This document shows, piece by piece, positions 9,412 to 24,499 of a stretch of DNA of 64,000 nucleotides. The notes under the pieces are model-generated. The model saw only the letters and a program-made list of their open reading frames with translations. It was not told the origin of the DNA and did no database searches. Position 1 is the first letter of the stretch, and each line of letters begins with the position of its first letter. The DNA comes from Rhodocollybia butyracea (Eukaryota; Basidiomycota; Agaricomycetes; Agaricales; Omphalotaceae): contig JADNRY010000232.1 in NCBI GenBank assembly GCA_015501585.1, positions 1 through 64,000 of the forward strand. Direction: 5' to 3'. The translations under genes and the position numbers were made by a program.

Positions 9412-10185
9412 TGAAAATGTTTATGTACAACACAGTAATACTGTACTCCCTCCTCGCCGAGTCGGATTTGTTGGGTGCCCTAGGGTATTTTTTCTGACCA
9501 AAGATCACAACAGAGTGACCACCCAAACACAAGTTGCAGCGGAAACAAGACAAGAGGATTACTCTCACTCTTCCCCTATTCATACAGGGTCAATTGCAAT
9601 TGGACTTCAAGCCATTTCTAATTGAATTTCGACTGGGGGTTGCTTGGTTGGTTTAGTTAGGGGGAGTCGTAGAAACAGAGACACTTAAATGAGACCTTGT
9701 TGTCAATGGGGGGGGTCTTTACGCTTGGCGAACGAGGTGGGGAAACTTAGGTATGAGCAACGATGGAAACGAGAAGCGAGTTCCTCTGAACAATCTAGCG
9801 AATGATCTCGTGTTAATGCTACTTTTATAACAAACAAACAACAAAAATTTGCTTTTGGAGAAAGGAAAGATTGGGTGATGAACCAGTGCACGAAACAAAA
9901 CACAATTATGCCGCTGCATGTCCGAGCCATTGGTCTGGGCAATGTCGTGCAAAGATATGGAAAAATTCGAAGTCTTTGGTATTTCAGTGACTGACACACT
10001 TTTGCCGAAATCTGTCCGCGCGCAGCTTATAATATGGTGGGCCCCGGCTGTTCCTTAAATAAGGACCACCAGGCCGGTTTTTCTTTCCTTTCTTTCCTTT
10101 CCACGGTTTACCGTGTCTGTTTTTGTTTTTGAACCTTCATCATCGCTTGTTAAGTTTTAACCAATTGTTGCAGGAACTACTTTCG
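9412..10185. other. Intergenic region, no gene seen
   Basis: Spacer between the rvt-like gene and the P-loop gene. It has a run of G at about 9711-9716 and a pyrimidine-rich tract of TTTCC repeats at 10080-10101 just before the next gene, a common promoter feature of fungal genes. No coding family is visible. Confidence 0.4.
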
Positions 10186-11353
10186 ATGCCCACCGTCCAA
10201 TCGCTCTGTCCGCCCACCCAACTGCCTCGCGCCGAGAAATATGAGTGGCCAGCTCAATCTCGAAGTCAATGGCGAGAAATCTTACCAGAAAGTGACGAAA
10301 GCCTGAAACAACTCAAACATGTGGCTGGATTGGCGCGTCCCCTCGTATTTCACCCGGGAACTTTGCCAGCGACTTTACAAATTGTGCCACACAAGTCTTT
10401 CCTCGAACACATTCTTCCTGGGCTGCAAGACACCAATGGTGAAATTGTAGTCTTGCCTGAGTACCCTGCAGTCGTCAAACGTATCGCGGAGATTTATCAA
10501 AAGAAGCCTGACAAAGGAGTACTCATTATGGGCCAGCCAGGCGTCGGTAGGTGTTGATATCTATACCTTTAAGGGTTATTTGAATGATTCTATTTTCGCA
10601 GGGAAGAGCGTGTTCTTGACTTACCTACTTCTCGTACTCTTGAGCCTTACACACGAGGAAGATCCCTATACCGGCCTGCGTGCTGCTCCCACCTTTGATC
10701 ACACCATTGGCGATGGCATGGTCCTCTTTTTTGATTGTAAAGTCTACAAACCTCGCTCGGCTTTCGACATCAAAAGCCTTCCCGGACAAAAGAAGAATAT
10801 TTCCAATTGGTTCAAACCTCCCGTATGGGTCCTAGTAGATTTGGAAGGGTTCACGGAAGAGCCTCGGGGGTTGTAACGATCGGAGAGCACCTTTATCATC
10901 CAGTCGGCGTCCCCTAACCTAGACTGGTGGGATAATTCGAGTCACGCACAAATTGGACTTCCACTTTGGAGCCGTGAGCTACTTCTCCAGGGGTAAGTTA
11001 TTGCTTACTGGTATCTCGCATTGTATGCTAAACCAGCCGATCCTTTTCCTTCTCAGTTGGAAATTCCAGCACAACAACAGCTTGAGGATCGTATTCTCTG
11101 TTGGGCCGGAAGAAAACTCAGGACCTCAGGCTCTGCTGGGAACCTTGTAGACGAGCACATGGAAGTCCTGAATAAAAGCCTTGCTCAACTGACGGCGGAC
11201 GTTGACCTAGTCACTAAGGCAACGGAGCTCCTTATAGATGAAGCTATATCGCGCTATGGTAATGCCACGCGGGATACTATGGGTCGCCAAGAAGTGCAAC
11301 TTTTTGATAAATCGCTTATAACTTTGCGGCGACTCAATATCTCAAAATTCTGA
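10186..11353 (+). pseudogene. P-loop NTPase of a Crinkler/RHS-like fungal family, interrupted
   Basis: Start MPTVQSLCPPTQLPRAEKY. A Walker A motif is assembled across an intron as GQPGVG-KS (donor after 10550, acceptor before GGAAGAGCG near 10603), followed by VFLTYLLLVLLS. FFDCKVYKPRSAF and PPVWVLVDLEGF may hold the next strand and Walker B-like acidic residues. The frame then meets TAA at 10874-10876, while the same frame downstream reads STFIIQSASPNLDWWD, as expected for the continuing protein. A further exon (from about 11056) gives a helical C-terminal part ending at 11353. The family resembles fungal proteins with high-copy, rapidly evolving P-loop cores, but naming it Crinkler-like is tentative. 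The TAA suggests a pseudogene. Confidence 0.45.
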
Positions 11354-11942
11354 ATAGATAGATCGATTTGTAGTAGATAAAAACTCTTACCTTGAATTTC
11401 CTGTATTTTTAAAGCTTCTATTGCCTGCGTCGGGCAATGTCCGAGCAAAAGTTAAGAAGTGCAACTGGGCGCTTAGCAGCTAAAACTCTTGCCGGTTTTC
11501 GCAGGCTCTCACTCGTTATTTTGCTTCTTGTTTCACGAATACTGTACGGATTCTCGTAGGAATTAAAACTTGGCCTGTTATTGGAATAGTAAATAACCCT
11601 CTGAAGTCATCTCAGCGGTCTCAATAGATATTCTATATGTTCCTGGCGATTGATGTAAAGATCATACTCACGATTCTGAACATTCTGTTCAGTATTCGAG
11701 CCCTGTTCGCAAAAGAATCAATCTGAGTAGATAAAATCATTATAAAGTATCTAAATATTGTTACAAAAAATCCTCAAATTTGTAGAGTGACGGGAACCAA
11801 TGTTTTTAAGCAAGTTGCACTTCCTGACGGTGAGCACTTCTTGACGGACCATAGTATCTACGTTTACCTCCGATCACCTGAACAGCTCAAAAGCGTAGAT
11901 GATGATGTCTACATGCCATGGAGAATGGCAATCACACCAAAT
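11354..11942. other. Spacer with a coding-like remnant next to the large element
   Basis: Mostly unassigned sequence. From about 11787 to 11966 one forward frame is open, with FKQVALPDGEHFLTDHSIYV and VDDDVYMPWRM, ending VQKNQLE-stop inside the inverted repeat arm. The mirror copy at 22830 (minus strand) ends VQKNRLE-stop. It may be the tail of a host gene or part of the element's own terminal repeat. Confidence 0.3.
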
Positions 11943-12396
11943 GTACAAAAAAATCAGCTCGAGTGAAAAAAATACCCATCTAACACTTTTCGGGCAAAAA
12001 ATCACTTGTTATTGATTTGTTGAGCGAGAGTTCGTCATTCAGTGCGTTTTTCGCAATTTCAGTGTAACTGAACGAACATATTTCAGTGAAAGTTCACTGA
12101 ACTATTAAGGTTCACTTGTATTTTCACTAACAAGTGATGTTTTTGCTGAAATGTGGTCAATCACTTCAACCATTCACCTGTAAAGCCCCAGTATTGGGTT
12201 ATGTAAAAGCGGATGTCCGGTTTTAGGATCCGCTTGTAGATAAGTGGCCAAGGTTATATTCGCACATATGCCTAAATACTGCACCTCTTAGGGTACTTTG
12301 GGGTAGAATCAGTACCCAGGCCTTCGGGACCTCCTCGGGATCATGTAAAACTGCCGGACATTGCGGCGCACAACGCTCCGGAGTTCGGAATATAAT
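11943..12396. repeat. Left inverted-repeat arm of the KDZ element, with an insertion
   Basis: Matches the reverse complement of 22567-22824 over about 250 nt at roughly 85-90 percent by eye. The match is interrupted at 11967-12167 by about 200 nt absent from the right arm. The outer part (11943-11966) has GTACAAAAAAATC followed by GCTCGAGTGA. The inner part starts at the CCATTCACCTG near 12170 and ends at about 12396. Confidence 0.75.
11987..12156. mobile_element. Small MITE-like insertion in the left arm
   Basis: About 170 nt with inverted ends: GCAAAAAATCACTTGTTA at the left, and the inverse of GCAAAAACATCACTTGTTA at the right (12129-12150). It sits inside the 200-nt stretch missing from the right arm. 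Internal palindromes such as TTCAGTG/CACTGAA are present. It encodes nothing. The exact borders and target duplication are unclear. Confidence 0.45.
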
Positions 12397-12581
12397 TTTT
12401 ATATACTGCGCTACTCATTTTTGTAAGTATAGAGTGTACAGCGTACAAGATATTGATTACACTAACGACATGGTATGATAATGAGAACAGCTAGTAAAGA
12501 CAGCGTACAGACAAGCGAGAGTAAAACATTGACAAGCAACGAAAGGACGGCAAGAAACAGCAAGAAAAACTGAGCGGTGAC

Positions 12582-14751
12582 CTACTCGCTCACCTCCTCC
12601 TCCTCCTCCCCATTGCTATTGCCATCGTCCTCCTCTTCATCGGTATCGACCACAAACTTGGATGACTTTCTTCTAGCTCCGCCAGACTTCTTTGATGCCC
12701 TCACAGAACCACCCTTCGAAGACCCCTTCTTCACCAGGGTCTTGGCCGATGCTTTTGACGATGTTTTCATTTCAGAAGATTTCTTCGCCTTTGAGTTCTT
12801 CGTTCGAGCGCGGACCTCCTCGTTGCCGTTATCGCGTTTGCGCTTCCTATGAGATCCACCAGCGTCGCTGTGCTTTGCCTTCGCGGTTGGGTTAAGTGCA
12901 TCTTCTTCCTCCAGAGCTTGAACGAATGCCTTGTGGTCCAAGGATGACATGCGCTCCCAACGAATGGCACCTGCCTTCCAGCCTTCGTATACAACCCTGA
13001 CATTAGCTGCAGAAAGTTTCTGCGGGCTAGCCGTCACAACTCCCTCAGGCCATCCGACGATATTCACCTTGTAAGGCACAATGATGGTTTTTTCGTATGC
13101 GGCGTAGCTCATTAAGACATTATTGAGACCGGTGATTTCACCTATATCTGAAAATAAGTATAAAAAAAACGAAATAAAAATGAGCCACGGCTTACGCAAA
13201 CGAGAGGTGATAAGATCAGCGAGTTCTTTGTCTGTTTCATTTCGGGTGAGCTTTCGATTACCTCCTACATGATAAGCAAATAAGCGGCAGATCCAGAACA
13301 TACTCAATAGAAAACTTACGCTTTTCCAACTCACATACGTGGTTCTCCCACATGATAGCCATGTCCTGGGCACCAATGTTGAAGTTTTTTTCGAAGAAAC
13401 TCGTTGCCGGGGCCTGTACCATAGTAGCAGGAGTGTACGGTATAGTCCCATGAGCCACGAGCCACGAACCCAAGGGTTTGAGAGCGCGTTGCTTCAAACA
13501 TGAAATCTGCCTGGAGGTAAATGAGCTACTGACAATGGAAGAATGAGAAATAAGAGATAAAATGCTCACCTCCTGTTGCAGCAGATTTATTTTTCCTGCT
13601 ACAAACTTCGCCGCAGAAGCTTTGCTCACCCGGATAGCCTTGAGTGTTTCTTCACTCTTCTCAGAGTCATACTGTTGTCGATATTCCTCCATGAGGTCAG
13701 GATTGTTGAGAGCGTCCATGAGTTCGTCATCAGCCTTGAGCGCAGTGTGGAGATCCCGTAGATGAATCTTGTCACCGACAGCAACACCTGCAAAAAATTA
13801 GCGTAGAAGCCCATCAGTAATGGGATAGTATATGTCACATCACAAGCCTACCGTCATTGAGCTGTTGAGTTTTAAAGTAGAGGAGAACGTTATAGTTACT
13901 TGCTCTTTTTTGAGGCTTGATTGAGGGAAGGTGTCGAGCGAGCTCCTTGACACGATGAACACCGACGTTGTTGTCATCAGCAACCTTCTTGTACAATTTG
14001 TCAATCTCATCCAGCATATTGTCAATATCGCTGGTAAGTTGGGAAGCCCTATCGTTCGCAGCTTGTCGCATCAGCTTCCGCTCTTCAGGGCCCATCTCCG
14101 ATCTCTTCTTCTTCTTAGTTGGCACAGTGTTTGAAGAGGAGGCGGCAGTGCGATGTCCAGAATCCTGATCTCCAACACGATGTCCAGAGTCTCTGTCTGT
14201 GGCGCGACCTCTGGAATCTTCAACGTGACTTTCAGAACCATCGACGCGACTTCCGGAACCCTCAACGCAGCTTCCAGAGCCTGGAAGAGCACTGCCAATG
14301 CCAGAGGTCCTGCCCAGTGTGTTTTCACCACTATCAGGGTGTGAGCCGCCGTAAAAACCAGATCCATCCTCGCTGGAATGATTAGAGGCTGGAGTAGCAT
14401 TGGATCTAGGCTGAGCTTGGCTGCCACCAGACAGTGCTGACATGAGAGAGCTTTGTGTGGGTGCATAGTTGGGCCGAGGAGCTGGAGTTGGAGGATATGA
14501 ACCTAGGGGAGGAAACGCATTAGATCAAAGTAACAAACCAGTTGAACGATTGTATGAAAAATCAAGAAAATGAAGGATACAAGGGTCAAACCATGAGATC
14601 TATCCATGATGAGTAAAATAAAACAAATCAAAAGCTTACTGGCCAATTCAGCGGTTTTCATCGAAACCTCAGGTAAAGTCGCGTTTTTGGAGAGTGCCGC
14701 CGCGTCCACAACATTGGCAACCTGGGGTGTTTGCCACTGGAGCCCCGTCAT
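12582..14751 (-). CDS. Agaricomycete-expanded basic nuclear-type protein, KDZ passenger
   Basis: Function unknown. Six exons by eye: 14751-14640, 14502-13852, 13787-13570, 13510-13320, 13264-13196 and 13147-12582, all in frame. It starts MTGLQWQTPQVANVVD. A Ser/Gly/Pro-rich N-terminal third with short degenerate repeats (LPGSGS, VEGSGS, VDGSES) is followed by a KKKKR cluster and a helical region. Next come blocks HLRDLHTALKADDELMDAL, EYRQQYDSEKSEETLKAIRV, LKPLGSWLVAHGTIPYTP and IVPYKVNIVGWPEGV. The tail is Lys/Ser-rich and ends in an acidic run (EEEEEVSE). I have seen the same order, with the VGWPEGV block, in many mushroom proteins of unknown role, often near transposons. It looks intact. 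The basic tail suggests the nucleus and possibly nucleic-acid binding (inference). Confidence 0.7.
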
Positions 14752-14986
14752 CGATGTAAAGACCAAGTAAACAAAGAGCAACCTTGAAAAAATATTGGGC
14801 AGCAGAACCAACTTGAATTTTTGACGAAGTCTAGCACCTGTGGCGGAGCCCGTGATCACTAGGTTTTTAGTCAAATTATCGGCCAATACGTACTCAGTGC
14901 TTCTCTCTTTCCAACTACCACCATCTCCTCGTCGTCGTCCATTGTGAAGCCCAAGTTTCGAACAACCGTGAAAGTAATAAGCAAAG
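14752..14986. promoter_or_regulatory. Shared promoter region of two divergent passenger genes
   Basis: The 235 nt between the start codons of the minus-strand gene (14751) and the plus-strand gene (14987). Both genes must be started from here or from overlapping sequence, so they may be co-expressed. No clear TATA box was picked out. Confidence 0.4.
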
Positions 14987-16182
14987 ATGACTGGTAAGCA
15001 TTTCATCATATGTCTGACATGTGAAATCTGACATATGATCATGATATTTCAATAGAAAAAAATCTCCCACCTAGCCAGCGCCTTTCCGCTGACGCCCAGG
15101 CAAAACGCTCAACTTCAGCTATCAATGCGCAAGATACGCCGTTCAATCAAGTTGCTGAGCAACATGCAGCTCGGAAGTACGCACTTCAAGACGTCGCCAA
15201 GCAAGCCTTTGGTAAGAATTTTTTATTTTTTATTTGCCTTTTGATTTTCATTTTTTTCCCCTGTAGCATTGCACAATGTGGAAGTTGCCCGCGCAAAGGC
15301 TCAAACTGACCTTGCGGTTGCGGAGCGTGGCATCACTGATGCTCTGGCAAAAGCAAACAAAAGTTTTTGTGAGTTTCTGCAGCTACGCCATCCATTTAGT
15401 ACTGATATTCTGTTTCCAGCCTCACTTCAAGCCAGCTTCACGCCTCCAAGCACGCCAGCGTGCCAAAGCGAGATTGTGACGCTCTCTATGCCTTCCAGCT
15501 TCACGGCTCTGAGCACGCCAACATGTCGAAGCGAGGCTGTACTCTCCACGCCCTCTTGTTTTCCATCCCCGCGCAAGCCGCTTTTCAGCCCGGCAACCCG
15601 CATTGAGCTTGCACCTGCTCCCCCGACTGCCTGGTACATTGTCTACCATGGTGTTGGCGGGGCCCAGGGTCTCTTTGATTGTTGGGATGGAGGAAACGAT
15701 GCTGTCGGCGCTCGGGATATTGCAGACCATTGGTATGCTCATCGTTCGGTGAAAAAGTTTGATGACTTCTGTACTGCCAAAATGTACTACAACGAGGTTC
15801 GCAATACAGGTATTCTTAACCTTCTGAAACCAGTTCCTTGCCAAGATGAGATCTTCATTGTCATTTGAGGTGTCAACCCTGGAATCTATAAGAAAAGGTA
15901 GGCTTTTTTCTGCTATTCATCTCTTTGCTAAGCTTATGCTGATGTTACAGGTACGAGCTTTTGAACAAAGGCCTTGGCTGGCGTGGCGGCTATGTCATCG
16001 GCGCTACCAGAGGTCACAACGCAGCCATCCACGAGTTCGGACTCCATGTCACCGAGGTTGAGAGGCTTGATGCGCAAGGCCCCCGCTCTGATTTTGACTA
16101 CGGCCTCCTTGACGATGACGAGGTCAAGGAAGAGGATAATGTCAAGTTGGAAGATACAGACGCTGGCCATTTCGCTGCGTAA
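14987..16182 (+). pseudogene. Protein with two RNase H1-N/viroplasmin-like modules, one TGA inside
   Basis: Five exons by eye: 14987-14993, 15056-15211, 15267-15368, 15420-15897 and 15951-16182. The N-terminal part (after MTEKNLPPSQRLS) is an Ala-rich helix. A Ser/Thr/Pro linker follows with three repeats of the form SFTxxSTPxCxSE. Then come two copies of a module like the N-terminal domain of RNase H1: WYIVYHGVGGAQGLFDCWDG with MYYNEV, and FIVI-x-GVNPGIYKKR joined to YELLNKGLGWRGGYVIG. The x position is TGA (15866-15868), while the frame remains open and meaningful on both sides. In RNase H1 such a module binds RNA-DNA hybrids; no catalytic RNase H core is seen. The TGA could derive from CGA by C-to-T change, which is inference. 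Confidence 0.55.
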
Positions 16183-16440
16183 CAGCTATCATGTAGTCAT
16201 TGTTGTAGTATCACGCTAATCTGCTGTTTTATCTTGCTATCAATGTAACATTTGTTGAAATCAACGTGCTCAAGTACTGAAATCCTTAATAAAAAAGTAG
16301 TGAATGGCTTGATAATTGTACTAAGCTAAGTAAGAAACTGAATGAAATGGCATATGATATTAAGGCCCACAAAACTGCAACACTATGTAACTAACCTGCA
16401 GAAGTGATATTCATTGCTCACTGGCTGTTATTCTCACTGA
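16183..16440. other. Convergent 3' spacer inside the element
   Basis: The 258 nt between two convergent passenger genes. AT-rich, with an AATAAA-like AATAAAAAAG at about 16289 that may serve as a polyadenylation signal for the plus-strand gene. Confidence 0.35.
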
Positions 16441-17058
16441 CTATTCCCCTTCTCGAGGCCCAGTGTGATGCTTAGACCTCCGAGAACGATATGTCCCATA
16501 TGCCCAATCAGCACCACCGTTCTTCTCAATATGCGCCCTGTAAGTACATCCAAAAGCATGAGTATGGGTAAGTAAGAAAAAGAGGAGAGCCAATGACACA
16601 CTTCCAACACTTGTCTTCTGCTTTGGAAAGAATATGGTCTTGATTTCTGTTAGGTAGGTAAAGTTTGAATATATTGAAATTCCACGCCAGCCGCTCACTT
16701 GAGATAATGCTTTTTATCAATGTTCTTGCGGTGTTCCTTCCTTTGAGCATGCTCAGCATTATCTAGACCAGCCCGTAATCTAAAAATTCTAAATGTTGAG
16801 CTGAGATTGAGAGGTACACGAGAACCTTACTTTGCCATTCGTGCCTTTGCAGCTTTGTTGATTTCATCTTTGTTTCTGCAAGCAAAAGGAACAATAGAAG
16901 CTAATGAGCAAAAGCTCAAGCTAATAGATGTGAGATTTGACTTACTTGAGGCGGTATCTCTTGGAGGCCCATCGAGCATTATCTTTTCGGATTTGCTCTT
17001 TGGCAGCTTCATCTCGCTTAGATTTTCGAATAGAAGACAGAGTACACTCCCTGACCAT
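16441..17058 (-). CDS. Small Lys/Arg-rich helical protein, KDZ passenger
   Basis: Function unknown. Start MVRECTLSSIRKSKRDEAAK at 17058. Short exons joined by standard introns give KEQIRKDNARWASKRYRLK, NKDEINKAAKARMAK and LRAGLDNAEHAQRKEHRKNI, and a last exon AHIEKNGGADWAYGTYRSRR ending at TAG (16441-16443). The protein is about 100 residues, very rich in Lys, Arg, Ala and Glu, and predicted as one or more charged helices. Similar charged helical proteins occur in many mushroom genomes without assigned role. The exon between HYLK and AHIEK is uncertain. It is probably transcribed as part of the element, but it could be a remnant. Confidence 0.45.
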
Positions 17059-17462
17059 TGCTGAGAGAGTTCTACAGCAGTTTATAACAGTAATTTGAAA
17101 GAGATGTTATAGTGGTAGGAGAAAGACAAGGAAAGTAAGTAAGCGTGCAATGCATACATCAAAGCTATTCTGCTTTGATCGTTAATCATTTCCTAAATAA
17201 ATAAAAACATTTAATATTCAGAGCTACAGCAAACAAGAGTATGGAATAAATACACCGAAAGCAGGCCTAGACCTATGTCTACAACATACAATAATCTTAG
17301 GGCATTTGAAAATTCTACTAGCTCAAAAATACACCAGATACGGCAAAAACGGTGTTTTACGTGTTCGTAATGTTTTTGTACCAGAGGTATAACACGTTCA
17401 AAAACATTAAGTATAGCAGAAAACCGACATCTATAGTACTGTACGACATACACGATCTATTA
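17059..17462. other. Spacer inside the element, no gene seen
   Basis: About 400 nt of AT-rich sequence between the small basic protein gene and the stop codon of the dioxygenase. It contains AATAAATAAA at about 17194 and a short inverted AACACGTTCA/ACGTGTTCG motif. No open frame with family signal. Confidence 0.4.
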
Positions 17463-19255
17463 TCAACCCTCCTGGAGGAGCTCTAGGCCTGTCTCCCAAA
17501 GCTTTTCCCGATATTCCTTCCATAACCGTAGCTGCCTGGGAGAAGCACGCTCCTTGAACTCCTTATCAGACATATATCCGTTATGAAACCAGCGAGCAAT
17601 ACCCGCGGGTGTGAAAAAAGCAATTGATGACCGAGTCTCCTCGGGTGCAATGGGAACATTACCATGGGTGACGCATGCAGAGGGAACATAGATGGTTGCC
17701 CCAGCTGGGAAGGGTACAACGACGCCAAGAGACCAAGCAATGAACTGACCGCCTCAAGTGTGATCAAACTTCCCACTTGCGTGAACTGCGCACATAGCAA
17801 AAAAAATGTTAAAAAAGTCTTCATGCAGTTGGGCCCAAGCCAAGTGCAAGTTAAGATGGCAAGCGGTATAGCAACAGCCCTCAAATATTCGCCGAATATC
17901 TGGGCTATCCATGAGCACCTTCTCTTGGAGGTTGGTGAGGAACAGGTGTAGCTTGGGGAAGTAGACCTGCAGGCCAGCTAATTGAACGTCAGCCAGGGAA
18001 ACAAAACAATGTGTGGCAACCTACAGTCAACGAGTTGAGCAATGCACTGAATAGCCTTATCCCGTAAGACTTTCTCGACAAGAGGAGCGTTGTGAGGTGA
18101 GTTGGCGTAGTTTCCAGGACAAGTTCGGCCACCTCCAAACCCAAAGCCTGCAGGCAATGATACGTAGCGACCGCGGCGGTGGATCCAATGAGCCAGGTCA
18201 ACAACAGCGCTCTCATACAGCCATTCGAGCGCCATGCTCACCGCAGCTTCAGTAGCGGGCCAGGTTTCTCCCTTGGGAGGAGGTAGATAGGCCATAAAGC
18301 GATGCCCGCTGGCTGTTTGAACGACATGGCCAACCCTGTGAAGCTGCATGAGGTAATATGCCAAAACATGAAGATGAAGAGCTCACCTGACATCCCATTC
18401 AACATAGCGGAGGCCAGATGCCTCAAAAACCTCCCTGACCGAAACTATTCTAGGCGTGAACGTCACCTGCTTTCCACTCCAGCCAGAGCCGAGGCACAAG
18501 TTAGCCAAATCCACAGTAACGGCGCCAGTCTCCTTTACCCGATGCCTGACGACGGCTTTCAAAACACTGCCGGAGGCCTTCTGAGCAGAAGTGCGAGCTA
18601 TCCTCCGCTTGGCACGATACTGAGCCTTCTGGCGGGCTTTCCCCTCCCCAGCCTGACTAGCAGAAGCCGGAGGTTCAGCCAACCAAACTTTCTTATGGGG
18701 TCTAGCACTGATGTTGGCAAGTAGTGTTGAGATGGGGACAGGGTCGGCGATGGAAGAGGGCCTAGGCAAGAGAAGAGACGACAGAGGAAGAGAGGCAAGC
18801 TTCTGGGGGCATAACCGGCTTCGGGATGAAACAACTTCATTGTGGTCATCACCCAACTCAAAAGCGGCCTCCTGCCTTGCCAGTGCTTCAGCCAGCAGGC
18901 CTTGAGGGTTGAAGTTAGCAAGCAAGATGTCAGAGCCTCGGCTTGACTTGCTGAATTCACGACCACTTCGAAGTGTGCGGAACCCGTCTAGAAATACAAG
19001 TTAGCGGTGCGTTGGAATAAGTCAGGCTAGAGCTATCCAAACGCCCCGCATCTAGAGGCCCACCCTCTGCGTTCACACTTCCCCATAGCACGGGGTGGTG
19101 GAACTCGCCAACAGCTGTTAGACACGCGAAGCGCGCTGCTCAGGGGGAAGGCTGAGTGGCAACAGGCAGGGAAAGGTGTGAAAAAAGAGAGAGAAAGACT
19201 TACATCCAGCCGAGAGGTTTTGCTCAAGTTCATTGGACACAACCTTGCGCTTCAT
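17463..19255 (-). pseudogene. Tet/JBP-like 2-oxoglutarate/Fe(II) dioxygenase with one in-frame TGA
   Basis: Related to fungal Tet/JBP enzymes that oxidise 5-methylcytosine in DNA. Four exons: 19255-19204, 18987-18387, 18335-18025 and 17977-17463, all in frame. Start MKRKVVSNELEQNLSAG. The N-terminal half is a Lys/Arg-rich linker. Core signatures follow: RVGHVVQTASGHRFMAYLP, HRRGRYVSLPAGFGFGGGRT, CPGNYANSP, the iron-binding LHED (HxD), GATIYVPSACVTHGN with the distal His, and PEETRSSIAFFT with the 2-oxoglutarate-binding Arg. Every expected catalytic residue is present. The frame is broken only by TGA at 17754-17756, inside FDHT-x-GGQF, where relatives have Arg; a CGA-to-TGA change would explain it. 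No intron can remove it without losing conserved residues. Confidence 0.75.
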
Positions 19256-19400
19256 GCTGTCCTGAACATCAAGAAGAACAGAGGGCACTTATACGCCTTG
19301 TGCTTTTTCTATATGTCGGGCACATGACCGATTATGGTCATGTGGTTTAACTGTCTCGCAAAATCGCCAACTCCAGGAACTCCTCCAACGCGCTGATACT
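19256..19400. promoter_or_regulatory. Bidirectional promoter of dioxygenase and transposase
   Basis: Only 145 nt separate the two divergent start codons (19255 and 19401). The two enzymes are therefore probably expressed together. It contains CCGATTATGGTCATGTG and short palindromes (ACATGACC/GGTCATGT), possible binding sites. This is inferred from layout alone. Confidence 0.5.
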
Positions 19401-22400
19401 ATGTCCAATACACGCCGAGTCAATGCCGCTGTGAGGGTAAGAAAGAACCGTAACCTTCGAGGGCTGGCTCATGGACTTCGAGGCGACGCCGATACTCAAC
19501 ATAAATCCCCTACAAGACGAGGTGCAACTCAATCTTTACGTCTCTCGCAGGTCAATAGAGAGCGCAAAAAGGGTGCTGCAGCCGATGCTCGACGATTGAT
19601 CCTGCAGACGCCTGACATTTTTGAACAGCAAGACTACCATCTTCCTGTCGATGAACATCATGACTACAATATGCAAAACTACCAGGACGGGCCCGACCTT
19701 GCAGAATGGGATGATGATCCGGACTGGGTGGCACTGGGGGATAATGGGGAGCCTGAAGATGACGTTACAAAAGCTATGAAGGAGATGCGGCACTCCTACC
19801 GCGATTTTCGTACCAGGCGAGACCGTACCCAGACATCGAATGAGCACTGGGCTCCTCAGCTGGATGGAATGGTTCATGCCTATATGGATTTCTGCCTTAG
19901 GGAGAAGTCTGGAGGCCAAGAGGAAGAAGAAGCAGGGGCAGCTAGTATAATGATAGAAGTGATAGACATATTTGGTATGGCCCATCTCCGTCACAATGAA
20001 CGGGTTTACTGATTTGAATCTTGAAGGTACTGAATTCAAACATATTCCCTCTTCTCATGACAAGTGGCAGTCCGAATCCTTAGTGAGGTCAGGGATCATC
20101 CCCACAGCTCCTCTTGTCCACAACAAAGGCGTTACCATTCGAACGGTCAACCTATATCATAAGCTCTTTGTTCGGTGCCCAAGACTAGGGGTTCAATCCT
20201 TTGCCAAGTCGCTGTGCGACCTTGAGGAAATGGCTTTCAGGCCTTACCTTTCTACAGAGCTCTACACTGCTTTCGACGTCTATCTCTCCATTCTCCGGGA
20301 GGTACGAAAGCGTACAAAGTTATCGCTTGGGCGTTCAGGACGGGAATGGCGGCTGCTGAACGCATGCCCATCATGCCAATACCGACTAAAAGAGGACAAT
20401 AAGCAGGATGTCCGGATGTTGATGGCAATGGATGGGAACGACTCCCTGAAACGCGTTGAGCACAAAGAGGATGTTCTCCAGGAGCGGGAAGATGCAGGAG
20501 AAGATTTGCCAGAGGCATCGAAGGAACGCATTGACCGTCGAACTGCGGGGGAGGAATTCTTTGTCTCGCGTGCGGAGACATCCAAGTGGGATGAAGGAAA
20601 TTGGGGTTCACTTCAGCTACCCCAGGGAGATGATGTCTCGCCCACAGATACCTTTTGGGGAGACAGCGGTTGTGAAGAGAAATGGCAGAACATGGATGAG
20701 AAGAAGACTGCCAAGGAGAGCTCAAAGTTTTTTGAGAACGGATGGTTTGTGCTTCTCTGTTGCCACATGGTGATGATGCTGGCTTGTGATATGGTGAAGA
20801 GTGGTGAGCTGTATGTTATATCTTCTAATTCTTTGGCTGTCTGAAGCTCACAATTCTACAGATACCAATATCCGCTGGTGCTGCTAGCTATCTACCTGTC
20901 CGCTGAGAAGGAGGAGCGTGAAAGAAATTGGGAAGGGCCACCTGAAGGAAAACTCGGAAATGCTTACGATATACACTGCAGTTCTCGAAGCATCTTCGGC
21001 GCAGCCCTCTCAAGGCGCTGGCTGAATGGTCAAGGTACCTCCCCGTGATAGGAACGATGCATGGATATGCCCACAAACGCCAATGTCAGCTCCTCTTTCT
21101 TATGCTCTACATCTTAGGCGTCGGGATCGAAGATGGAGAAGTATGCGAGAGATACTTTAGTATCTCGAATGGTCTTGCTGCCATCACTCGCCACCAATCC
21201 GCTTTTCATCGACGGCAAGCCATCTCCGAGTTTGTATATTACCAGGACCTTCAGACGTACTCAAACATCAGCAAATTTATCTATGGGAACTATAAACAGG
21301 CCCTCTCTATTACTCGTCGAACTAATGCTCTTCGACACAGCATGCTTAAGGCTGGAATCACCTCGCCCAAGGTATTCTTTGAATGGCTGGCAGAGGAGGG
21401 AGAGTATTTACAAAGCCTCTCTCGTACACCTCCGAAAGAGACCCTGGAGTGCGAATATTACCTGAAGTTGGAAGCTCTCCAGGCTTGCCAGGATCATCTT
21501 CACAAGGCTCAAAAGGCTTGGCTATCTTTTGCCCCAGGCATCCGCGATCAGACCAATACGTTGGAAACAAAACGCCGAAACAAAGAAGAGAACAAACGGA
21601 AGCTTCTGGCAGATGTGCATTGTTTGGAAGAGGTGCTGGAGGTCCGGGAGCGCTGGCTGGAAGGCTCAGAAAAATGGGAGGAAGCAAAGAAGGCAGCGAA
21701 GGAGACTACCTACAGGAAAGCACTGGATAAACTGGAGGGGCTGCTTGTCGCTCGAGTGTTTGAGATGAGCCGCTTAAATGTTGCAGGAACTGGTGAGTGT
21801 TTAAGGCTAGTAAGCTTCATATACTAACAGGTGAGCTTTTACTAGGCTATAAACTTCGAAAACATATTGCAAACGCTATGAAGATTTGTTCAAAATCAAT
21901 CTCTGCCGCTATCATTGCCTACAATGACGCCGCTACCAGCCTCACCCCGCCACGACCAACGCTGAAATGCGAGGAAGCGCTTGAGTTCATTTATCTATCG
22001 GAGTTTGACATCCTGCGGAACGCAAGAGAAGACGTGCGAGAGAGGCCGTGGGCTACCCCTGGAAACCGACTTATCATGACTGAGTTCTTCAAACTCATCC
22101 GTGCAGAGGAGGAGATAGGACGGCTGCACCTGGAAATTCAGCGGCTGATCACACACATGTTCGATGAGGAGGAGTTGATACTGGATAAGGCGGAAGCGGT
22201 TGAACTGGAGGACCCAGGGCTAGCACTGCAGCTCAGGTCCTATTGGAATGAACGAGGGAAGTTCAATGAGCTTCATCGCAGACATCTCTTTGCCATCAAG
22301 AAATTACCAGGATTTCAGCCTGAAAATTTACAATACTTCCGCCGAGGGACACATGTTAGCCAGGAAGATGCCTCGATGAGCTCAGAAAGGTCTGATCGTA

Positions 22401-22519
22401 CCGCAGGCGTTGAAGCAGAGCCTGACGAGCCATGGGCTGAGGATGAGGACGGAGGTGAGGACGATGATGAGATACTGGGGCTAGTGGACACAGTTATGAA
22501 TCTTACAGTTGACGACTAG
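19401..22519 (+). pseudogene. KDZ (Kyakuja-Dileera-Zisupton) transposase with one frameshift
   Basis: Transposase of the KDZ class, expected to have an RNase H-like DDE core acting at the inverted repeats. Exons: 19401-19974, 20027-20810, 20862-21792 and 21846-22519. Family signatures: IEVIDIF early, FRPYLSTELYTAFDVYL, ACPSCQYRL (a Cys pair), LMAMDGNDSLKR, EEFFVSR, ENGWFVLLCCHMVMMLACDMVKSGE, YPLVLLAIYLSAEK, AYDI, RRSPLKALAE, GTMHGYAHKRQCQL, GAxxEDGEVCERYFS-type GVGIEDGEVCERYFS and TRHQSAFHRRQAI. A Glu/Asp-rich tail follows. A 1-nt deletion at about 20979 (TAC GAT ATA CAC TGC then AG TTC) shifts the frame between AYDI and QFSKHLRRSPL. The rest is clean, so the copy is either recently dead or mis-sequenced. 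Confidence 0.85.
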
Positions 22520-22566
22520 ATTCATGTATTATATGTACTTCATTTAGCCTACGTTAATATGAGAGC

Positions 22567-22824
22567 ATAATCCCGAACTCCCGAGCGCTATGCGCCGCAA
22601 TGTCCGGCAGTTTCACATGATCTGAGGAATTTTGAAGGCACCAAAGGCCTGGGTACTAATTCTACCCTAAAGTACCCTTAGAGGTATGGTATTTAGGCAT
22701 ATGTGTGAAAATAACCTTGGCCACTTATCTACAAGTGGATCCTAAAACCGGACATCCGCTTCTACATAACCCAATACTGGGGCTTTACAGGTGCAACCAT
22801 TCACTCGAGCCGATTTTTTTGTAC
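22567..22824. repeat. Right inverted-repeat arm of the KDZ element
   Basis: Reverse complement of the left arm (see 11943-12396). It starts 48 nt after the transposase stop codon. It has no insertion and so preserves the uninterrupted arm, including ACTCGAGCCGATTTTTTTGT at its outer end. Confidence 0.75.
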
Positions 22825-23012
22825 TTTTTTGATGTGAATACAGTTCATCAATACCTGGCATGGAACTAGACAAGCTTTGATGGAGAATAAGATTGGCAGG
22901 GGGTCGTCGCATTGTGTCTGCACGCTCATATCGCACAAGCTCGACAATTGGAACCTCACATTCAGGGGAAAATGGAAGACAAGAATGCCCTGAACGATGA
23001 GCAGAGAGGACA

Positions 23013-23164
23013 TGTAACGCCTACGGCACGTTCATTGCCGTTAGCACCGATATTACATAATTAGTCTACTCTTATCCTCGTACCACATACTCGTTTCGGT
23101 CTATTTCTCTAATAGAATGAGATCTTGCTCATGGTCTGAGGCATTAAGAGTCAGGGCTCATACA
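23013..23164 (+). repeat. 5' LTR of the miniature retroelement
   Basis: 152 nt, TG...CA termini; same length as the 3' copy, with 6 transition differences. Confidence 0.8.
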
Positions 23165-24338: not shown

Positions 24339-24490
24339 TGTAACGCCTACGGCACATTCATTGCCGTTAGCGCCAATATTACATAATTAGTCTACTCTTA
24401 TCCTTGTACCACATACTCGTTTCGGTCTATTTCTCTAATAGAACGAGATCTTGCTCATGGTTTGAGGCATTAAGAGTCAGGGCTCATACA
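24339..24490 (+). repeat. 3' LTR of the miniature retroelement
   Basis: 152 nt, followed directly by the target duplication GGACA. Confidence 0.8.
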
Positions 24491-24499
24491 GGACAACTC

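Follow-up and report, generated by a model that had tools for sequence, protein, structure and literature searches.

A KDZ transposon of Rhodocollybia butyracea with a TET/JBP-like dioxygenase and companion genes

The window analysed here is a stretch of 64,000 nucleotides from the agaricomycete Rhodocollybia butyracea (assembly GCA_015501585.1, contig JADNRY010000232.1, positions 1 to 64,000; contig C531 below), and it contains a KDZ transposon at 12175-22793. Five genes lie between the terminal inverted repeats (TIRs) of this element, encoding a KDZ transposase, a TET/JBP-like dioxygenase (TET), an RNase H1-N-like protein (RNH), a VGWP-type basic protein (VGWP) and a small Lys/Arg-rich protein. 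The element has probably moved as a five-gene unit, and its TET is predicted to oxidise 5-methylcytosine (5mC) on the element and would thereby relieve silencing by the host, a reading that is favoured here with some reserve. TET-carrying Kyakuja and Zisupton transposons have been described in Agaricomycetes, and their escape from silencing has been proposed (Kojima 2025, PMC12730594), so the linkage of KDZ transposases with TET in fungi, which the preliminary description took as established, is indeed in print (statements from this paper and from PMC12810828 refer to the portions covered here). What appears to be new, judged against the literature covered, is that the companion genes keep their order across several TET-carrying KDZ families with long TIRs and 8-bp target duplications. 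The term 'RNase H' is absent from the main text of PMC12730594, and VGWP and small basic companions are unmentioned there; its supplementary tables may differ. Literature searches for the RNase H1 N-terminal domain in connection with fungal transposons, or for viroplasmin in connection with KDZ elements, returned no paper. The five-gene set is undescribed in the literature covered, and an earlier listing in supplementary tables is possible.

Borders, terminal repeats and landing site

The element is 10,619 bp long, runs from CACCTG to CAGGTG (CACCTGTAAAGC...GCTTTACAGGTG) and is flanked on both sides by CAACCATT, an 8-bp target site duplication with its left copy at 12167..12174 and its right copy at 22794..22801. 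The left TIR (12175..12391, + strand, 217 nt, first bases CACCTGTAAAGCCCC) and the right TIR (22570..22793, - strand, 224 nt, last bases GGGGCTTTACAGGTG) align in two blocks, one of 158 nt at 92% and the other of 53 nt at 91%. An assembly-wide search with positions 22567-22824, as suggested in the preliminary description, found three pairs of arms (in the window, on C1094 and on C25), all three enclosing genes and matching the query up to base 227; no arms without genes were met. Query bases 228-258 occur alone at five other places, and because they match there without arms the limits of the element were set at 12175 and 22793. The preliminary description had five genes bounded by inverted repeats of about 250 nt at 11943-22824; the repeats and the five genes stand, but the borders do not. 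A single element covering 11943-22824, with arms of that length, fits the fact that the outer bases, too, form an inverted pair, but it is left with next to no chance: the outer bases are found elsewhere as an uninterrupted repeat without a KDZ element, and a sister copy has the ends CACCTG/CAGGTG in other flanks.

The outer bases form a palindromic repeat of about 275 bp, similar to a miniature inverted-repeat transposable element, which served as the insertion target and lies outside the KDZ element (left part at 11932..12174, right part at 22802..22837). When the element and one 8-bp copy are removed, the joined flanks match as one stretch, at 97% and across the junction, on C885 (L007) and C864 (L008). 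These uninterrupted repeats are empty sites for the window element, which is thus nested in a repeat whose left part gave 14 matching rows genome-wide, its own included. The preliminary description had called for a comparison with orthologous empty sites to find the target duplication; the duplication was identified here, with two uninterrupted copies of the repeat elsewhere in the genome as empty sites.

A sister copy (C1094:105178-115802) matches the whole window element at 98.5% and is located at another site, with its own duplication, GCAAGATC, on both sides. Two near-identical copies therefore occupy different target sites, and fixed syntenic positions of the genes, which would have spoken against mobility, were not seen in the data searched. 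The flanks of the C1094 element match the window at 23013-23128 and 23121-23164, and these matches overlap by exactly 8 bp, GATCTTGC (23121-23128), the reverse complement of the C1094 duplication; the window therefore also holds, at 23013..23164, an uninterrupted repeat of the kind in which the C1094 element landed, with an unoccupied copy of its target. This short repeat occurs twice, close together, in the window (23010-23164 and 24339-24491). An older copy, C25:85929-109001, has arms and genes in common with the window element, with a DNA identity of 70.8-74.4% over the four longest blocks, and its outer 8-mers (AGGTTTCC/AGGTTTCT) are identical at 7/8 positions. It spans 23 kb because about 12.4 kb of foreign sequence is nested between TET and transposase (C25:92968-105634; L013, L014), with 1.8-kb direct repeats at 99.9% identity; the insertion resembles a young long terminal repeat (LTR) retrotransposon, and the direct repeats look like LTRs. 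In the window and C1094 copies alike, the two arms of the element are about 12% apart, so the TIRs provide no insertion date.

Long inverted repeats with CACCT ends also surround TET loci on C650 and C620 (361 nt), C902 (362 nt) and C905 (314 nt); at C650, C902 and C905 the flanking 8-bp duplications are perfect. Beyond the window copy, four elements have a perfect 8-bp duplication and C25 has 7/8. No target duplication was seen for the C620 element, the right flank of which is that of C650 while the left flank differs. The stretches C620:149-11253 and C650:324446-335512 are about 97% alike, with a common right flank and different left flanks, possibly because they represent two haplotypes or because sequences were joined in assembly close to the end of contig C620. 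Long inverted repeats are also present at the C58 TET locus; one 81-nt inverted pair and two shorter ones were found at C434, pairs of about 50 nt at C478, and none in the search around the C456 and C358 TET loci.

Target duplications in KDZ transposons measure 7 bp in Kyakuja and 8 bp in Dileera and Zisupton (PMC12730594). The window element, with CAACCATT twice, falls within the 7-8 bp of the superfamily and has the Zisupton trait of an 8-bp duplication together with TIRs. It is like the published TET-carrying Kyakuja and Zisupton elements in having a KDZ transposase and a TET between transposon ends, in a mushroom host and with a proposed escape from silencing; its CA..TG ends are as in Kyakuja and its 8-bp duplications as in Zisupton (PMC12730594). 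The two Kyakuja families of Laccaria have 7-bp duplications and no TIRs (PMC12730594), whereas the elements analysed here have 8-bp duplications and TIRs of 217-362 nt; Kyakuja as described for Laccaria can therefore be ruled out for the window element. KDZ1 of the basidiomycete Cryptococcus neoformans is similar in size (about 11 kb) and, like the window element, has long TIRs (241 bp), 8-bp duplications and a KDZ transposase, but no TET or companions are named for it in the portion of the paper covered, and its transposase contains a CxC1 domain (PMC12810828); no such domain was reported by Pfam for the exons of the window transposase. The TET-carrying IS3EU elements of rusts likewise combine TET with a further order-conserved gene, an alpha-kinase, but belong to another transposase superfamily, make 6-bp duplications and have a companion other than those of the window element (PMC12730594). 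Companion proteins are named for two other groups, the alpha-kinase for IS3EU and a third protein for PHISTA (PMC12730594).

Genes of the element and identity of the dioxygenase

Gene models were built from GT-AG splice sites and homology, not from transcripts. The transposase gene (19401..22519, + strand) is spliced and confirms the KDZ assignment of the preliminary description, the KDZ domain PF18758 being matched above the cut-off on two exons (6.9e-18 and 2.4e-24). A scan of four unspliced open frames of the transposase for CxC domains found none at E up to 1. The TET gene (17463..19000, - strand; at least three exons) and the transposase gene are arranged head to head. So are VGWP (12582..14942, - strand; spliced, at least five exons in a sister-copy model, start codon 14942 predicted by eye) and RNH (14987..16182, + strand; five exons, supported by the sister-copy model, the NCBI model P0002 and relatives with PF01693), with predicted start codons at 14942 and 14987, 44 nt apart. 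The small Lys/Arg-rich protein is encoded at 16441..17058 (- strand) by a spliced gene, the limits of which were mapped from the sister copy. All five genes named in the preliminary description, the VGWP basic protein and the small Lys/Arg-rich protein included, were seen inside the repeats at 12175-22793. A Pup-like Pfam match in the VGWP gene (13835-14524, - strand; 2.8e-4 and 0.0017, below the cut-off) was rejected as probably compositional. To the left of the element, at 10063-10557 (+ strand), the window contains an open frame in which the residues GQPGVG look like a P-loop.

The window TET has the HED motif and the codons for the distal His and the Arg, with a TGA (17754-17756) separating the HxD motif, whose His is encoded at 17823-17825, from the distal His, encoded at 17664-17666. 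A Tet/JBP-like dioxygenase with all catalytic residues had been described; its identity and the HxD...H...R codons are upheld, but the gene is interrupted between them and is not intact. In a three-row alignment (A2), H339, D341, H392, R403 and R416 are invariant, and the Arg binding 2-oxoglutarate is one of R403/R416. Several results weigh against the assignment to TET: a Pfam search with the sister-copy TET exon P0001 and with A2 found no TET, the Tet_JBP family missing most of the relatives, and sequence searches of the Protein Data Bank (PDB) with P0001 and A2 returned nothing related. A genome scan with PF12851 gave four matches, all below the cut-off and none in the window, three of which overlap places matched by P0001; the relative P0022 matches PF12851 at 3e-4, again below the cut-off. 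Because the Pfam and PDB sequence searches found no TET, identity was settled by the predicted fold of a relative, P0017 (an annotated protein on C902, 248 aa, 46% identical to P0001), which was modelled in place of the broken window protein. The mean predicted local distance difference test (pLDDT) score of the model was 74.6, and its best Foldseek matches were NgTET1 (9.5e-07), CcTet (3.4e-06) and CMD1 (2.7e-04), with Z scores of 14.9 for NgTET1, 14.3 for CcTet and 11.3 for TET2, followed by 11.0 for a HIF prolyl hydroxylase. A further reservation is that only two of the five models were confident and that residues 128-134 (HxD) and 178-182 (distal His) had pLDDT values below 50. The prediction, in which the fold of the relative is nearest to TET/JBP, supports placing the dioxygenase with the TET/JBP enzymes.

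Sixteen TET relatives were matched, ten of which were aligned with P0001 (alignment A4); P0019 and P0024, with poor C-termini, and the short P0028, P0029, P0031 and P0032 were kept outside. CcTet of Coprinopsis cinerea (7vpn, 8jkk, 7w5p) is 12-13% identical to the window-clade TET over the aligned part, and at positions +5 and +11 after the HxD His the window clade has Asn and Cys where CcTet has Gly331 and Asp337, on the basis of offset counting only. AG-type TETs have Asp at CcTet position 337 and Gly or Ser at 331, and in PE-type TETs the HxD is replaced by HxE (PMC12730594); the PE type is ruled out by HED in the window and HxD in the three A2 rows.

RNH, spliced in the sister copy, is a protein of 324 aa. 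Pfam reported no family for the window lineage, and a single-sequence homologue search retrieved only the window's own protein; an alignment-based search found 15 proteins, all but one of them assigned to Rhodocollybia or Lentinula. Ten of these relatives, from the C905 clade and Lentinula, form alignment A5, from which five were omitted: P0002 (the window's own), P0006 and P0009 (fragments from its family), P0015 (short) and P0016 (partial). The RNase H1 N-terminal domain PF01693 is matched by all ten A5 rows at E up to 1 (best 2.9e-10), with P0003 at 29 bits against a cut-off of 21 over module 1 only, and by 3/6 rows of alignment A1 at E up to 10. In profile comparisons the window-lineage RNH was linked to A5 across both modules at E 5.7e-06, and its link to the C620 protein had E 1.3e-11. 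Modules 1 and 2 align in register at E 0.15. The RNase H1-N-like double module of the preliminary description is thus supported for module 1 by the matches of relatives and unproven for module 2, the double module being a good guess from the alignment. A fold model of RNH had a mean pLDDT of 42.9 and no match under E 0.001, with 3bsu only at E 4.4. A genome scan with PF01693 gave two matches (C324 and C517), where KDZ and TET matches are absent; introns and divergence are the likely reasons for its missing the RNH genes of the elements.

Gene order and linkage across the genome

The order VGWP(-) RNH(+) TET(-) KDZ(+) was found at 14 loci genome-wide: C531 (the window), C1094, C25, C620, C650 twice (at about 55 and 330 kb), C902, C905, C58 (counted on a weak VGWP match, 1.1e-4), C74, C837, C676, C1090 and C716. 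These are loci rather than independent events, because several are close copies of one family (C905/C74/C837, C620/C650 near 330 kb/C902 and C531/C1094). Among the 14 are divergent families with long repeats and 8-bp duplications of their own. Incomplete sets were seen at C1115 and C434 (no VGWP match), C523 (no KDZ match) and C456 (at a contig end), and partial sets at C307 (RNH and TET only) and at C1300 and C520 (VGWP and TET only). VGWP was matched without TET on C462, C637 and C9, and RNH, weakly, without TET on C842; at the C478 and C358 TET loci the searches for RNH, VGWP and KDZ gave no match. A small basic gene of the same kind, place and strand occurs in the C620 family (five rows on four contigs), and in the corresponding gap of C905 no open frame of at least 110 aa was found for it, shorter exons being possible. 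The co-occurrence of all five genes suggested in the preliminary description therefore holds at 14 loci for four of them, the small basic gene having been seen in the window and C620 families. A 90% copy of the C620-family small basic gene lies at C527:2485-2829, on a contig with a KDZ match and without a TET match.

Linkage was counted after merging matches within 2 kb, the counts for RNH and VGWP, from two queries each, being lower bounds. A TET lies within 6 kb of 13 of the 14 RNH loci, in every case downstream and in the opposite orientation (about 0.017 per locus would be expected by chance), and within 15 kb of 18 of the 21 VGWP loci, in 17 cases upstream and in the same orientation. The remaining counts speak against the reading favoured here. 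Of the 88 KDZ loci only 31 have a TET at a distance of up to 15 kb, 29 of these pairs being on opposite strands and 19 of them head to head; only 31/131 merged TET-like loci have a KDZ match within 15 kb; and, by hand count, RNH was matched in 16 of the 31 KDZ-TET pairs and not in 15 (C158, C703, C1267, C762, C972, C938, C1160, C583, C442, C1027, C506, C1268, C335, C1061 and C672). The RNH-less pairs have more distant TETs, and in them a divergent RNH may have been missed, or the companions may be limited to one branch. RNH, where found, tracks TET, but TET is not always accompanied by a recognised RNH. The 100 TET-like loci without a KDZ match may be other carriers, solo genes or contig ends.

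Decay of the copies and possible roles of the proteins

In the comparison of the window or C1094 copy with C25, dN/dS values for TET were 0.06 in exon 3 (bootstrap 0.04-0.12), 0.21 in exon 2 and 0.22-0.34 in parts of exon 1; those for the transposase were 0.18, 0.10 and 0.07, those for RNH 0.18 and 0.27 (the latter for exon 5, bootstrap 0.00-0.53; module part 0.11) and those for VGWP 0.36 and 0.34. Codons holding stops were skipped, and the values, which cover these four genes in one family comparison, are rough, with dS close to saturation and broad bootstrap ranges in some cases, a reservation that counts against the reading favoured here. The low ratios make purifying selection on TET, transposase, RNH and VGWP likely, and the ancestors of these copies therefore likely kept the four genes working. 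It is improbable that the companion genes were picked up as mere passengers, or work for the host, and have no role in the life of the element. The TET-like loci without KDZ, the KDZ-TET pairs without RNH and the broken genes of the window copy are consistent with such capture, whereas the low dN/dS, the tracking of TET by RNH and an order and orientation fixed across families with TET identities of only about 26-48% argue against it.

The window copy itself has in-frame TGA codons in RNH (15866-15868) and TET (17754-17756), and by comparison with the sister its transposase is one base shorter at 20980, a frameshift, and its VGWP one base longer at 13385. With its transposase frameshifted and its TET interrupted, this copy is predicted to be inert and movable only with the help of a working relative. 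The window and C1094 copies differ at 139 positions, with 129 transitions, 110 of which are C/T changes at CpG sites; the TpG/CpA state is in the window at 79 of these sites and in C1094 at 31. Outside such changes the copies differ at only 27/10,612 columns, so they are young and already decayed. TCG was changed more often than other CpG (50/277 vs 60/713; P 4e-5). Observations on this decay also weigh against the proposed protection by TET, which would give a low ratio of CpG to other changes: the rate was 110/990 at CpG and 18/4194 at other cytosines (ratio 25.9) in the window-C1094 pair, and 186/1095 and 57/4292 (ratio 12.8; TCG 80/296) in the C620-C650 pair. An in-frame TGA is moreover present in TET of all three copies (window, C1094 and C25), which means that the family has not been spared CpG decay. 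Ratios in control pairs were 3.9 (6/47 CpG) for an unrelated 1.15-kb inverted repeat in C902, 0 to 6.8 for the palindromic repeat (three pairs, each with 0 to 2 changes among about 20 CpG), and 4.4 and 13.3 for two pairs of the other short repeat; the CpG excess is clear in the elements, the six control pairs being small, with ratios of 0 to 13.3 and one reaching 13.3. TCG was favoured about 2.4-fold (odds) over other CpG in both element pairs, resembling a pattern reported for rusts, hypermutation being said to be undetected among Agaricomycotina (PMC12730594). Cytosine methyltransferase family matches are present on four contigs of the host genome. The pattern of substitutions suggests that the element was exposed to CpG methylation or its oxidised products and that these copies no longer escape; the decay is background to the anti-silencing idea, not proof of it.

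Under the reading favoured here, the KDZ transposase would move the element by cut-and-paste at the TIRs, and TET would oxidise 5mC on element DNA, keeping promoters and ends free of it. RNH, VGWP and the small basic protein may be nucleic-acid-binding partners that bring TET or the transposase to the element. Anti-silencing by an element's own TET, which we infer for the window element, has already been proposed for TET-carrying transposons (PMC12730594), and the relation of RNH to a hybrid-binding domain makes a role at R-loops or RNA:DNA hybrids conceivable. A more specific version, in which RNH would read RNA:DNA hybrids arising from the element's own transcription at the two head-to-head promoters and, with VGWP and the basic protein, deliver TET solely to these promoters and to the ends of the element, in the manner of an RNA-guided demethylation kit wiping marks from the element and not from the genome, seems distinctly unlikely at present. 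Unlikely, too, is a service of TET and its companions to transposition itself, with TET clearing modified cytosine from the TIRs for the transposase and the basic and RNH proteins acting as end-binding or hybrid-handling subunits. Such a service would suit the constant arrangement of the four genes at the 14 loci, which lies within TIRs wherever their ends could be placed, and a TET exon 3 about as constrained as the transposase. Against it, 57/88 KDZ loci lack a TET match within 15 kb, and KDZ1 of Cryptococcus has a transposase with no TET named in the portion covered (PMC12810828); KDZ movement in general therefore does not require these proteins. TET could also write a new base mark (5hmC, 5caC or another) as a functional signal rather than as a step in demethylation. 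This possibility was discussed by Kojima (2025), and oxidised methylcytosine has been reported over transposons of Coprinopsis and Laccaria (PMC12730594), but Pfam scans of exons and two spliced proteins brought to light no modifying enzyme besides TET among the five genes, and a signalling mark is given little credence here.

The decay of CpG in the element suggests an encounter with a CpG-directed mutating process in an Agaricomycete. Mushroom TETs have been speculated to act without a specific target (Kojima 2025, PMC12730594), and RNH and the other companions are now named candidates for a step by which a transposon TET would find its own element. The relation of RNH to a hybrid-binding domain, together with its tracking of TET, makes such targeting testable in a fungus.

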